64,000 nt of DNA from Candidatus Saccharimonadales bacterium. GTDB taxonomy: Bacteria > Patescibacteriota > Saccharimonadia > Saccharimonadales > UBA4665. Each line of letters starts with the position of its first letter. The first letter of the stretch is position 1. Below, one piece after another: positions 54,879 through 62,836 of this stretch. The stretch is from the NCBI GenBank assembly GCA_036388415.1, contig DASVRW010000002.1, positions 1 through 64,000 of the forward strand. The letters are read 5' to 3'. The notes under the pieces are model-generated. The model was given only the letters and a program-made list of their open reading frames with translations. It was not told where the DNA came from and searched no databases. A program made the translations under genes and the position numbers.

Positions 54879-55289
54879 ATGGATACTACACAAAATCAGG
54901 ATTTTACTTCACCAATGCACCCTAAGCGTATTCTACTCGTCGAAGACGACGATGCGCTTGCCAATGTCTATCTTGTACGCCTGCAAGCCGAAGGCTTCGA
55001 TGTACGCCGTGTCGCCAACGGGGAGGATGCCCTCGCAACTGCGCTGAGCTATAGCCCGAATTTGGTGCTCCTCGATGTGATGATGCCCAAGGTCAGCGGC
55101 TTCGACGTGCTCGACATACTGCGTAACACGCCCGAAACGCGCAACCTGAAAATCGTCATGCTGACTGCGCTGAGCCAGGAAAGCGACCAGGCCCGCGCCA
55201 AAAGCCTCGGCGTCGACGAATACCTTGTCAAATCACAGGTTGTTATCGCTGATGTCGTTGACCGCATCAAGCAACAGTTAGTTAGTTAG
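54879..55289 (+). CDS. Single-domain response regulator (receiver only)
   Basis: The 136-residue protein is a CheY-like receiver with all key residues: the acid cluster VEDDD at 21-25, the phosphoacceptor in LLDVMMP at Asp 66, Thr 96 in MLTALS, and Lys 118 in YLVKSQ. There is no output domain, so it must act by protein contact. No kinase gene is adjacent. GATAAT ends 9 nt before the ATG. The stop codon lies within a GTTA repeat. Confidence 0.93.
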   Translation: MDTTQNQDFTSPMHPKRILLVEDDDALANVYLVRLQAEGFDVRRVANGEDALATALSYSPNLVLLDVMMPKVSGFDVLDILRNTPETRNLKIVMLTALSQESDQARAKSLGVDEYLVKSQVVIADVVDRIKQQLVS

Positions 55290-55696: not shown

Positions 55697-56923
55697 TTAC
55701 TTCTTTTCTAAAATGAGTAGTTCGCGGGCGGTGACTTGGTCTTCGCGGTAGTAGATCAAATCATCATGCCGGACGTGCTCAAAACTTATACGATTGTACC
55801 CCAGTTCTGCCAGTGAGTCAAGGAGCCTCAGGTGTTTGAACTGCCCGTGGCGGACTTGCCAGGCAGGCACTGCTAGGCAGAGGCGAGTGCCGGGCTGAAT
55901 TTGGGCATAGAGATTGCGCAAAAATTTGGTAATGATGAGATTACATTCGCCGATGGTCTGCTGCAGTATCTCAGGATTCGGCAGTTCGGTGAACGGTCGT
56001 CCGAGGTAGGTTTCGCAGGCCACGATATTGAATATTGGCTGCCAGGTGTGCTCGGTAGCGTCAGCGACTTCGCAGAACACCGGCTGATTTGTTACGTTAT
56101 ACGTATGGCTCAGCCATTCCAGGTTAGTCTGGGTGTATTCAATCATACGCGGCTCCAGGTCGGTCCCGTAGATATCGTAGCCCATCAAGCGAGCTTCCTG
56201 CAGGACGACGCCCGTACCGCAGAATGGATCGAGGATGCAGGCGGCGAGGGCCTGTTTGTTGGTGGGGTGGTTTGGGTCTACGACAGCTCCCGTGGGGATG
56301 ATGTGTTTGCCAGCCAGATTGATAATAATCTGTGCCAGTTTCGGCGGCAGCATGCCGACCCGGGCATCGCGTTTCGGTCTATCGCGGTCGCGTACGGTGT
56401 AGCTGTCGATATCCTGGACGTGTACCGTCTGGGCTATGATGGTTTGCTGGCCGCTGCGCACGATGACGAGTTCCCAGCCAGTTGGGCCGGTTAGATCATT
56501 GTGCAGCACGGAGGCGCTATTGAGTTCAATATCTTTGTTTGGTACCAACCGCACGGAGCGGCCGGATTTTTTGATGACTTTTTTGAGGCTAAGGCCTGTC
56601 GCCAACATGCTCTGTGTGTTGATACGAATGCCGTAGGCGCTCAGGCCGAGCTGCACTTTGCCCTCTGGTACATACTGCAAATGATCCGTGATAGTACGCA
56701 GTAAATATTTTTCTATATCGCCCCACGAGGTCGTGTTGAGAATGTTTAAGACTCGGCAGTGCTTGATGCTGCCGCCGAGACGGGCAAAATTAACATCGCC
56801 CGGCTCGACATCGAGTAGGGCGGCCGTTGATTCGACCCGGTGTACCGCAGTAGCACCGTACAGACTTTCTAGCTCCGCAATTCCAAGTGCCGGCTGTCGT
56901 CCAAGTATAAATAAGCTCTGCAT
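55697..56923 (-). CDS. Trm11-like tRNA guanosine methyltransferase
   Basis: The 408-residue protein has an N-terminal THUMP-like half (about 1-170) and a Rossmann methyltransferase half with ILDPFCGTGVVLQEARLMGYDIYGTDLEPRMIEYT (motif I and acidic loop) near 230. This arrangement is that of archaeal TrmG10/Trm11 enzymes, which make N2-methylguanosine at position 10 of tRNA. The catalytic motif, usually DPPYG, reads ACETYLGRPF here, so Asp-Pro-Pro is replaced. A DNA or rRNA target is an alternative. Confidence 0.8.
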   Translation of the reverse strand: MQSLFILGRQPALGIAELESLYGATAVHRVESTAALLDVEPGDVNFARLGGSIKHCRVLNILNTTSWGDIEKYLLRTITDHLQYVPEGKVQLGLSAYGIRINTQSMLATGLSLKKVIKKSGRSVRLVPNKDIELNSASVLHNDLTGPTGWELVIVRSGQQTIIAQTVHVQDIDSYTVRDRDRPKRDARVGMLPPKLAQIIINLAGKHIIPTGAVVDPNHPTNKQALAACILDPFCGTGVVLQEARLMGYDIYGTDLEPRMIEYTQTNLEWLSHTYNVTNQPVFCEVADATEHTWQPIFNIVACETYLGRPFTELPNPEILQQTIGECNLIITKFLRNLYAQIQPGTRLCLAVPAWQVRHGQFKHLRLLDSLAELGYNRISFEHVRHDDLIYYREDQVTARELLILEKK

Positions 56924-60012: not shown

Positions 60013-60116
60013 TGCATTTCAAAATCTCCCCATGAGTCTCGTCAACCTGTCCGCCCCTAAAATAATTTTGGGGCCGCCCCGCAGGTTGCCACTCAAGGTG
60101 GAGATTTTCAAATGCA
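60013..60116. repeat. Dispersed inverted repeat, copy 6 (apical deletion)
   Basis: The shortest copy. The outer arms TGCATTTCAAAATCTCC and GGAGATTTTCAAATGCA pair at 16 of 17 positions. The 25 or so bases of the apical hairpin are missing, so CCCCTAAAATAATTTTGGGG closes it directly. Confidence 0.9.
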
Positions 60117-60129
60117 AATTAAGTCAGAC

Positions 60130-60158
60130 TTGCACGCGAGCAATAAGTCGTTTACCAT
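60130..60158 (+). promoter_or_regulatory. Promoter of the gene at 60166, leaderless arrangement
   Basis: TTGCAC at 60130-60135 and TACCAT at 60153-60158 are 17 bp apart, and the box ends 7 nt before the ATG at 60166. The in-frame ATG at 60112 lies inside copy 6 and upstream of this promoter. Confidence 0.45.
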
Positions 60159-60165
60159 TAGCAAT

Positions 60166-60849
60166 ATGATACGGGCAACCTTCGGACCAGGCAACAGAGG
60201 TGAAATTAATGTGCTTTTACTGCCATTGATTCTGCTGAGTGTATTCTTCGTAGCCAGCGCCGGCTTCGCTATATGGGCGTATGGTGGCCGGCAGGATTAC
60301 AAAAATAATACGGAACAGAAAATCGCCAGCGCCGTTAAAACAGCCAAGCAGCAAGAGGGAATCGTAAAGGACAAGCAACATGCCGAAGCCGACAAGCAGC
60401 CGCTGAAAACGTATACCGGACCCGATCAGTTCGGCAGTGTAAAAGTCTCGTTTCCCAAGACCTGGAGTGCTTATGTTAACGCCAGCGGAAGTGGCGCCCA
60501 GCCGCTTGACGGATACTTTAATCCTGGAGTCGTCCCGAGCTTGAGTGATCAAGCTTCTATCTTTGCCCTTCGTGTCCAGATCGTCAATCAACCATACGCC
60601 GCAGTTATTGCTGGACTAAATACTGCGGTTACTGCTAAGCAGCTGACCGCAACACCGTACGCCTTTCCGCAGGTACCAAATGTCATTGGTACCAAATTCG
60701 ACGGTACAATCAATCAAAGCCGGAAAATCACTGGCAGTATGATCGTAGTACCGCTGCGCGACAAGACATTGCAGGTCTGGAACGAGAGTTCAGTCACGAG
60801 TGCTGATTTTACTACCTATATTCTCCCGAATATTACTTTTTCTCCTTGA
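60166..60849 (+). CDS. Membrane-anchored extracytoplasmic protein (227 aa)
   Basis: After a basic N-terminus (MIRATFGPGNRGE) one hydrophobic helix spans about 16-40. A charged linker (KQQEGIVKDKQHAEADKQ) and a beta-rich domain of about 150 residues (FGSVKVSFPKTWSAYVNASG ... YILPNITF) follow. This layout suggests an anchored surface or periplasm-like protein. No family is recognised. The start was decided by the promoter next to it. Confidence 0.68.
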   Translation: MIRATFGPGNRGEINVLLLPLILLSVFFVASAGFAIWAYGGRQDYKNNTEQKIASAVKTAKQQEGIVKDKQHAEADKQPLKTYTGPDQFGSVKVSFPKTWSAYVNASGSGAQPLDGYFNPGVVPSLSDQASIFALRVQIVNQPYAAVIAGLNTAVTAKQLTATPYAFPQVPNVIGTKFDGTINQSRKITGSMIVVPLRDKTLQVWNESSVTSADFTTYILPNITFSP

Positions 60850-60999: not shown

Positions 61000-61734
61000 G
61001 TGACTGAATCGACTCTGGCAGAGCAAAAGCAAGCATTGGTGCAATCCGAACAGCTGTTTTTGTCACTGGCAGAACAAATGAAATTACCGCTGCTCCAAAT
61101 CTTAAAACAGGCTGAACTCGGCGTACTCATCGGCAATGCCACCGAACATCTGCAGCAGGTACAGGTAAACGCAGATGTTGCGCTGAAGCTGATTGACGGA
61201 TATTTGCTCAGCATGCGGCTAGCGGCCGAAGAGTCGTATGACATTGAACAGGAATCGGTATCAATATCATCAGTGCTGTACGACACAGCGCATCAACTAC
61301 ATCCGATTGCCAAGTTGTACGGTGTTAGCCTGGAGCTGTCGCTAGGCGGCAAGTACGGGCCGGTGACAGCCCACCGCGAAGGTTTGCAGAGCGCCCTCGT
61401 GACGCTCGGGTACGCACTGATCGAGGCGCTGCCAGCAACCAATACGCCGCAGCTCAAACTGGAGCTGGCAGCGCACCGCTGTCGCTACGGCATTGTGGCC
61501 GGGCTGTATGCAGATGTTGACCGGCTGACTGCCGAAGCCTTGCGCCAGGGGAGGCGGTTGGTTGGTGATACGCGTCAGCCACTGCCAGCGCTCAGCCACT
61601 GCGGCGGCGCCGGCGTATTTGTCGCCGACGCCATACTCAACGCCATTGGCGCCCGGCTCAAAGTTTCTCACCATAACCGCCGTTCCGGGCTGGGCACGGT
61701 CCTTCAGGCAAATCCTCAGTTACAATTAATATAA
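61000..61734 (+). CDS. Degenerate histidine-kinase-like protein
   Basis: The GTG at 61000 follows GCGAGGGGTACGCTG. Residues 10-75 form a HisKA-like helical hairpin. In FLSLAEQMKLPLLQI the conserved H-E-L-R-x-P-L reads E-Q-M-K-L-P-L, so the phosphoacceptor His is Glu 25. The C-terminal half keeps only a trace of an ATPase fold (GGAGVFVADAILNAIGARLKVSHHN in place of the G2 box), and no N-box Asn is seen. It is probably a pseudokinase that binds partners. The receiver-like gene follows by 2 bp. Confidence 0.72.
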   Translation: MTESTLAEQKQALVQSEQLFLSLAEQMKLPLLQILKQAELGVLIGNATEHLQQVQVNADVALKLIDGYLLSMRLAAEESYDIEQESVSISSVLYDTAHQLHPIAKLYGVSLELSLGGKYGPVTAHREGLQSALVTLGYALIEALPATNTPQLKLELAAHRCRYGIVAGLYADVDRLTAEALRQGRRLVGDTRQPLPALSHCGGAGVFVADAILNAIGARLKVSHHNRRSGLGTVLQANPQLQLI

Positions 61735-61736
61735 TT

Positions 61737-62129
61737 ATGGCAGACATACTATTACTCGAACCAGATGCTATTCTCGCTAATTTGTATATGCAGGCCTTTA
61801 GTTTTTCTGGACATACCGTGCGGCGGACGGTCAGTGCACAAGATGCAGTGTTTCAAGTCGATGAGAGTATGCCAAATGTTATAATCGTTGAACTGCAGCT
61901 TGTAGCGCATAGCGGTATCGAATTTTTGTATGAACTGCGCTCCTATCATGAGTGGCAGCATATCCCGGTTTTGATCCACAGCTGTATTCCGCCAACTGAA
62001 TTTAGCGACAGTACGAGTCTGCTGCGCGACAAGCTGGGCGTAAAGGAGTATTTATACAAGCCGCATACCAGTATGCAAAAACTACTGCGCTCAATTACGG
62101 ATATCAGCCCGGCAGCAATAACGGCGTAG
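61737..62129 (+). CDS. Degenerate receiver-domain protein
   Basis: The 130-residue protein has the receiver fold: LLLEPDAILANLYMQ at the start, IIVELQL near 50, VLIHSC near 80 and EYLYKP near 106. The acidic pocket keeps Asp 10, and Lys 108 is present. The phosphoacceptor Asp, however, is Glu 52, which can mimic the phosphorylated state in other receivers. With the degenerate kinase gene 2 bp upstream it makes a matched pair in which both phosphosites have changed to Glu. Confidence 0.8.
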   Translation: MADILLLEPDAILANLYMQAFSFSGHTVRRTVSAQDAVFQVDESMPNVIIVELQLVAHSGIEFLYELRSYHEWQHIPVLIHSCIPPTEFSDSTSLLRDKLGVKEYLYKPHTSMQKLLRSITDISPAAITA

Positions 62130-62143
62130 CTTCTAAAGAAATT

Positions 62144-62836
62144 ATGAAACAAATCAACACCCAGGCCGTCGTACTCAACCGCACGGAATACGGCGAAGCT
62201 GACCGCATCCTGACGCTACTCACGCCCGACCATGGCAAGCTAAGTCTTATAGCCAAAGGCGTGCGTAAAATAAAATCGAAGTTAGCTGGCGGCATTGAGC
62301 TGTTCAGTGTCAGCGACATATCGTATATACAGGGCAGGGGTACGGTCGGCACGCTTGTCTCGACGAGGCTCATACGGCATTACGGCGCCATTGTCACCGA
62401 CGTCAACCGGACGATGCTGGGCTACGAGCTGATTCGCCAGCTCCACAAAGCTACAGAGGACGAACCAGAGCTGGAATATTTCGAACTGATCGAACAGGCC
62501 TTTGCGGCACTCGACGATGTCTCGATTGACCTACATCTCATAAAAATGTGGTTTCTCATGCAGTTGTTGCGCATCGATGGACATACCCCCAATTTGCAGA
62601 CTGATAGTACGGGTGACAAACTGCGCGCGGATCAAAAGTATACGTTCAGTTACGATGACATGGGTTTCGCTGCCCAGCCGGATGCTCAGTTTGGTGCCGA
62701 TCATATAAAGTTCCTGCGCGTTGGTTTCGCCGGCAACAAGCCGGCAGTTATACAGAAAATTACAGGTGGTCCGCAGCTGCTGGCCGATCTAACGCCGCTG
62801 CTCCAAACTATGGCAACAACATATATCCGGCTGTAG
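62144..62836 (+). CDS. recO: DNA repair protein RecO
   Basis: The 230-residue protein has the N-terminal OB fold (TQAVVLNRTEYGEADRILTLLTPDHGKLSLIAKGVRKIKSKLAGG) and the helical C-terminal domain typical of RecO. RecO loads RecA onto SSB-coated DNA with RecR. The zinc-binding Cys of many RecO proteins are absent, as in E. coli. It lies 14 bp after the receiver gene. Confidence 0.93.
   Translation: MKQINTQAVVLNRTEYGEADRILTLLTPDHGKLSLIAKGVRKIKSKLAGGIELFSVSDISYIQGRGTVGTLVSTRLIRHYGAIVTDVNRTMLGYELIRQLHKATEDEPELEYFELIEQAFAALDDVSIDLHLIKMWFLMQLLRIDGHTPNLQTDSTGDKLRADQKYTFSYDDMGFAAQPDAQFGADHIKFLRVGFAGNKPAVIQKITGGPQLLADLTPLLQTMATTYIRL

Follow-up and report, generated by a model that had tools for sequence, protein, structure and literature searches.

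Two adjacent genes near the end of the window (the whole 64,000-nucleotide stretch analyzed, from a Candidatus Saccharibacteria) encode a histidine kinase homolog, P0001, and a receiver homolog, P0002, that descend from a normal two-component system. The ancestral operon was composed of a membrane protein, a sensor kinase, a canonical receiver and recO, and one large Saccharibacterial clade of about 112 sequences, hereafter the derived clade, lost the kinase His and ATP site together with the receiver Asp and metal site. On balance, and with moderate confidence, we regard the pair as a former two-component system in which phosphotransfer was lost on both sides and the protein architecture was kept, the receiver serving as an adaptor and the pseudokinase as its partner or scaffold.

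Identity of the two proteins

The genes mem245, P0001, P0002 and recO form an operon-like run on the plus strand in the last 3 kb of the window (Table 1). Checking of the open reading frames placed a GTG start at 61000 and a TAA stop at 61732-61734 for P0001, and ATG starts at 61737 and 62144 for P0002 and recO, respectively.

Table 1. Coordinates of the pseudokinase–pseudo-receiver locus and of its diagnostic residues
Feature	Position	Strand	Remark
mem245	60112..60849	+	Conserved single-pass membrane protein, directly upstream of the pair; candidate input partner
P0001 pseudo-histidine kinase, 244 aa	61000..61734	+	Soluble core of a kinase; no sensor or membrane segment
Glu25 codon, phospho-accepting His site of P0001	61072..61074	+	Alignment with H-E-L-K-x-P orthologues
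Eroded N box, P0001 residues 131-146	61390..61437	+	ATP-binding Asn absent
Remnant G2 box GAGVFVA, P0001 residues 203-209	61606..61626	+	GLGLYIA in H-D members
Gln240, P0001 C-terminal tail xQLxL	61717..61719	+	Common to functional and dead forms
P0002 pseudo-receiver, 130 aa	61737..62129	+	Receiver domain only
Pro9 codon, P0002, replaces second metal-binding acid (DD2)	61761..61763	+	
Glu52 codon, phospho-Asp site of P0002	61890..61892	+	
P0002 residues 58-73, helix 3, HxGIEFLYExRSYxxW	61908..61955	+	Most conserved receiver segment; proposed output surface
Lys108 codon, P0002, conserved receiver Lys	62058..62060	+	Retained
recO	62144..62836	+	Directly downstream of P0002, same strand; Pfam RecO_N match

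P0001 gave no kinase family match against Pfam, and HisKA matched just one of its 69 homologues. Its kinase identity was established by other means, namely by orthologues occupying the same operon slot, which match HisKA and HATPase_c, by the fold and by alignment of the anchor motif. The AlphaFold2 model (69-homologue alignment, pLDDT 86) showed a helical hairpin and an alpha/beta domain with HK853 as the best PDB match (E 1.5e-9), followed by RetS, CpxA and DivL, and the sequence profile of P0001 matched ShkA (6qrj) and DivL in the PDB. Within the H-E-L-K-x-P-L anchor, Glu25 aligns on the His without a gap. A register shift by one, placing Glu25 at His+1, was excluded, as the K-x-P-L anchors align gap-free and Gln26 occupies His+1.

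Glu occupies position 25 in 160 of the 188 derived-clade pairs, far beyond chance. The N-box Asn is present in 17/17 members that keep His and Asp (H-D members) and in 0/98 of the main derived clade, where the G1 Asp is retained in two rows and the G2 box survives as a remnant only. Gln240 of the C-terminal tail is found in 129 of the 130 loci read in the order and in 189/189 derived-clade pairs. P0001 lacks the phospho-accepting His and intact N, G1 and G2 boxes of a canonical kinase, and shows the fold, the descent and the lost phosphotransfer residues of a pseudo-histidine kinase. The sequence predicts a protein without ATP binding or kinase activity.

P0002 barely passes the Pfam Response_reg model (30.6 bits versus a cut-off of 30.2). 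Its AlphaFold2 model (72-homologue alignment, pLDDT 95) is a (beta-alpha)5 receiver, for which FrzS was the best PDB match, with RR468 and DivK also matching. Neither the phospho-Asp, replaced by Glu52, nor the acidic metal pair, which reads E8-P9, is present; the profile-recognized domain with D and DD2 lost and Ser82 and Lys108 kept identifies a pseudo-receiver. Kinase fold, receiver fold and gene adjacency are all present in the pair. These results bear out the preliminary description of this DNA, which had proposed two neighboring genes with retained kinase and receiver folds, eroded ATP-binding boxes and Glu at both phosphosites; the loss of the metal site comes in addition.

Across the derived clade (n = 187), position 52 is Glu in 170 and Asp in 13 sequences, and Lys108 is kept in 182/189 pairs. 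Among the 98 rows of the main derived clade, DD2 is Pro in 91, position 52 is Glu in 91 and Lys108 is present in 92; DD2 is Asp in all 17 H-D members. The Glu lock is not universal: in family f37, position 52 has mostly reverted to Asp without recovery of the metal site, and Ala, Ser or Asn is found there in a few genomes. Coupling analysis placed E52-K108 and E8-K108 among the 20 strongest couplings within the receiver. The helix-3 segment has a mean entropy of 0.80 bits versus 2.2-3.2 for helices 1, 2, 4 and 5. The nine orthologues of P0003, the other receiver of the window, likewise vary least in helix 3, so its conservation does not point specifically to a new role.

P0003 (54879-55289) is the canonical receiver-only protein that had been noted at 54879, and P0001 is the sole kinase-like open reading frame in the window. 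It lies just downstream of pyrG, as do its counterparts at loci L163, L167, L168 and L176, and receivers of this type were also found at L162, L169, L171 and L173. Since the pyrG arrangement recurs across other genera and families, P0003 is a conserved orphan receiver and not a local oddity. An opposite-strand open reading frame conserved in this neighborhood (55697-56923) carries the SAM-methyltransferase motif DPFCGTG and looks like a Trm11/TrmG10-type RNA methyltransferase.

Ancestry of the operon and joint loss of the phosphosites

We searched 198 genomes of the order with P0001, found relatives in 144 and read 130 loci. The receiver adjoins the kinase in 129 of the 130, recO follows immediately on the same strand in 126 of those 129, and mem245 lies directly upstream of the kinase in 124/130; the gene order membrane protein, kinase, receiver, recO is fixed across the order. 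Synteny is alike in members with and without the His (the H-D and Glu-Glu groups), and these members are therefore orthologues, as the Gln240 tail supports. Common synteny and this tail rule out that the H-D members are unrelated paralogues. No viral relatives of the pair were found, which together with the syntenic chromosomal operon rules out a mobile or viral origin.

The membrane protein mem245 had no relative in Pfam, NCBIfam or the PDB. Its motifs are RQDYKNN, at the juxtamembrane position, and YPKTW, and it is also encoded, without the pair, in further classes of the phylum. In one genome of genus g16 (G162, L165 10241-15562), it is set apart from the kinase by an insertion of about 5 kb, and it is likewise absent directly upstream at two further loci of that genus (L009, L011). 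Two tandem mem245-like frames precede the kinase at L260 (1307-3050), and at a locus of family f38 (L291) mem245 and recO flank a canonical receiver, no kinase being found among them.

Outside the order (families f41, f43 and f45-f47), the slot by recO holds a sensor kinase of 657-1133 aa and a canonical receiver, and mem245 stands beside nearly all of these full-length kinase loci. The full-length kinases end in ...IAKQLPLL or a close variant, and the single one scanned contains GAF, PAS, HisKA and HATPase_c domains. In the outgroup family f39, the sensor-less kinase keeps the His and lacks the N-box Asn; at L277 and L278 the receiver Asp is also kept, and this kinase is possibly a Spo0B/ChpT-like phosphotransferase representing an intermediate stage. 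A tree rooted on the full-length kinases recovered the derived clade (111 rows) at an SH-aLRT of 100, with a Ser/Glu member of family f13 as its weakly supported sister. Two outgroup rows seemingly without His on the tree (L307, L310) were domain-trimming artefacts, as both show SHELRTP. Because of the outgroup-rooted tree and the full-length outgroup kinases, we conclude that the sensor region was lost first and the phospho-chemistry later on both sides. Relatives with intact His and Asp, which the preliminary description had regarded as counter-evidence, do exist (about 46 sensor-less and 10 full-length loci), but they are ancestral on the rooted tree and the derived clade stands. Conservation of Glu at both sites in relatives, a check that it proposed, is borne out by the counts given above and by the Glu-Glu state of 20 families.

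Among the first 129 pairs, 79 are Glu-Glu, 17 His-Asp and seven Asp-Asp, with few of any other state. Scoring was extended to 162 pairs by adding loci from family f35 and one outgroup family: 46 have the His and a canonical receiver (two acids, Asp and Lys), 114 have lost both and two are discordant, so that the kinase His and the receiver phosphosite are kept or lost together in 160/162. An intact sensor-less His kinase with an Asp receiver occurs in seven families, six in the order and one outgroup, and no family has both this and the Glu-Glu state. There were at least three separate losses of the phosphosites. Single genomes of f35 lost the site anew, with Gln/Ser (L271), Arg/Glu (L273), and Arg and Asp with DD2 lost (L276). 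An independent-pairs test found about three contrasts in the same direction and none in the opposite, the roughly five changes per side being too few for significance. Inside the derived clade, L119 has a kinase with H and no N box beside a Glu receiver; its relatives have Asp, and the H could have arisen from Asp by a single base change. In genome G050 (L176), the kinase gene is lost and a Glu-type receiver is kept between mem245 and recO.

Maintenance of the pair and possible modes of action

Within the genus, non-synonymous divergence (pN) of the kinase is no higher than that of recO (0.06-0.18 versus 0.17-0.24), with synonymous sites saturated, so that the kinase is the better conserved of the two. 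Residues L19, E39, A132, L187 and G230 of the kinase and P9, H58, E62, W73, L100 and Y107 of the receiver are near-invariant only in the derived clade. This purifying selection and the clade-specific invariants show that the pair has a maintained function and is not decaying. That the genes are decaying relics held in place by operon structure, through translational coupling to recO, is very improbable: the loss of kinase signal at the Pfam level, the median gap of 2 nt between kinase stop and receiver start in derived-clade pairs and the one genome without a kinase would fit such relics, but the purifying selection, the roughly 110 derived loci whose frames remain open and intact, the new invariants and the universal Gln240 would not.

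A change from His to Glu takes two base changes. Since Glu outnumbers one-step replacements despite this two-base path, the data suggest that Glu was favored by selection at the kinase His site. Glu52 is more constrained than Glu25 in derived-clade pairs, and because of this and of the G050 receiver that outlived its kinase, the functional member of the pair appears to be the receiver.

With the His, the Asp and the metal acid gone, the pair is unable to run the usual reaction. In the adaptor reading that we favor, the receiver would serve, independently of phosphate, as an adaptor of constitutive shape, held in an active-like form by a Glu52-Lys108 contact, which is plausible because Lys108 and Ser/Thr82 remain and the E52-K108 coupling is strong. 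The conserved helix-3 face (H58-W73) would bind a partner, and the pseudokinase may be the binding partner or scaffold of the receiver, as DivL is. It may also relay input from the upstream membrane protein through binding, not catalysis, with control exerted through expression level and complex formation. Of the top 40 kinase–receiver couplings, 10% fall at the expected interface versus a 5% baseline, a weak excess, and the kinase–receiver distance correlation given recO and xseA has a partial rank value of 0.34; neither is strong enough to prove binding. In a phosphotransfer pose the two Glu residues would face and repel each other, which counts against the favored reading. A more specific version, in which binding of the pseudokinase gates a Glu-locked receiver, the membrane protein supplies the input and the pair was converted as a unit across at least 20 families, strikes us as rather unlikely.

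One alternative is that the receiver is phosphomimetic, permanently on and sequestered by the pseudokinase, giving a phosphate-free on/off switch gated by binding, along the lines of the preliminary description. The frequencies of Glu52 and Lys108 fit this proposal, as does the recurrence of the D to E change in f13 and, separately, in one f35 genome, and Glu at the phospho-Asp site partly activates many, though not all, response regulators (PMC12632262). However, most f37 receivers have Asp but no DD2 acid, a few genomes have Ala, Asn or Ser at the site, and one genome has the receiver without the pseudokinase, so we consider the switch doubtful. Alternatively, the pair could modulate intact two-component systems in the style of DivL and CckA, by mixed kinase dimers or by docking competition from the pseudo-receiver. 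The 1.14 Mb genome would offer targets, with 10 receiver matches beyond P0002 and P0003 and more than 12 kinase matches, and the profile matches to ShkA and DivL and the model matches to DivL and RetS point the same way; DivL itself has no kinase or phosphatase activity and works by binding (PMC4211667). Against modulation, P0001 lacks PAS or any other domain specific to a partner, the pair is not accompanied by a conserved second kinase gene, and receiver helix 1, the kinase-docking helix, is variable (2.57 bits), leaving it improbable as well.

Relation to known systems

Reported frequencies of loss are 0.9% for the His among HisKA domains and 2.0% for the Asp among receivers (PMC12632262), and the commonest residue at the lost Asp of pseudo-receivers is Glu (Bourret et al. 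2025, PMC12632262). Pseudo-receivers and pseudo-histidine kinases have been known as separate cases, and the working mechanism of pseudo-receivers is regarded as an open question (PMC12632262). With the present assignments, two conserved Saccharibacterial genes have identities, the kinase among them being invisible to family models.

The pair resembles DivL-DivK of Caulobacter in its replaced His site, weak ATP site and receiver-only partner, as well as in the PDB matches. DivL, however, has Tyr at the His site and PAS domains, and it binds phosphorylated DivK, whose Asp is kept, whereas the present pair has Glu, a receiver that is dead too, no PAS or sensor domain, and genes that lie together by recO. 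HK853 and RR468 are a natural kinase–receiver pair; the folds of both proteins are alike, but the present pair is without His, Asp, ATP site or metal site. FrzS, the top PDB match of P0002, is similarly a receiver fold without the phosphosite and metal acid, and it binds its partner through the alpha3-beta4-alpha4 face (PMC12632262). FrzS is not paired with a pseudokinase, and P0002 differs in being a stand-alone receiver whose helix 3 is lineage-specific. In CmrRST of Clostridioides difficile, a pseudo-receiver is likewise encoded within a two-component operon (PMC12632262), but CmrS and CmrR are described as normal, and CmrT is no lone receiver: it belongs to the OmpR family of regulators and carries an output domain. 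The phosphotransferases Spo0B and ChpT, with a degenerate ATPase domain, keep a phosphorylatable His where P0001 has Glu25.

In the open-access literature, we found neither a cognate pair that had lost both sites nor this Saccharibacterial operon. One slot displays a series from full sensor kinase with working receiver, through stripped kinase with working receiver, to dead pair and lone receiver, and loss on one side accompanies loss on the other, so that the way in which phosphate-free two-component proteins arose can be tested directly here. Each protein is of a known kind, a pseudo-histidine kinase and a pseudo-receiver, and it is their joint conversion with a visible ancestral series that is new.
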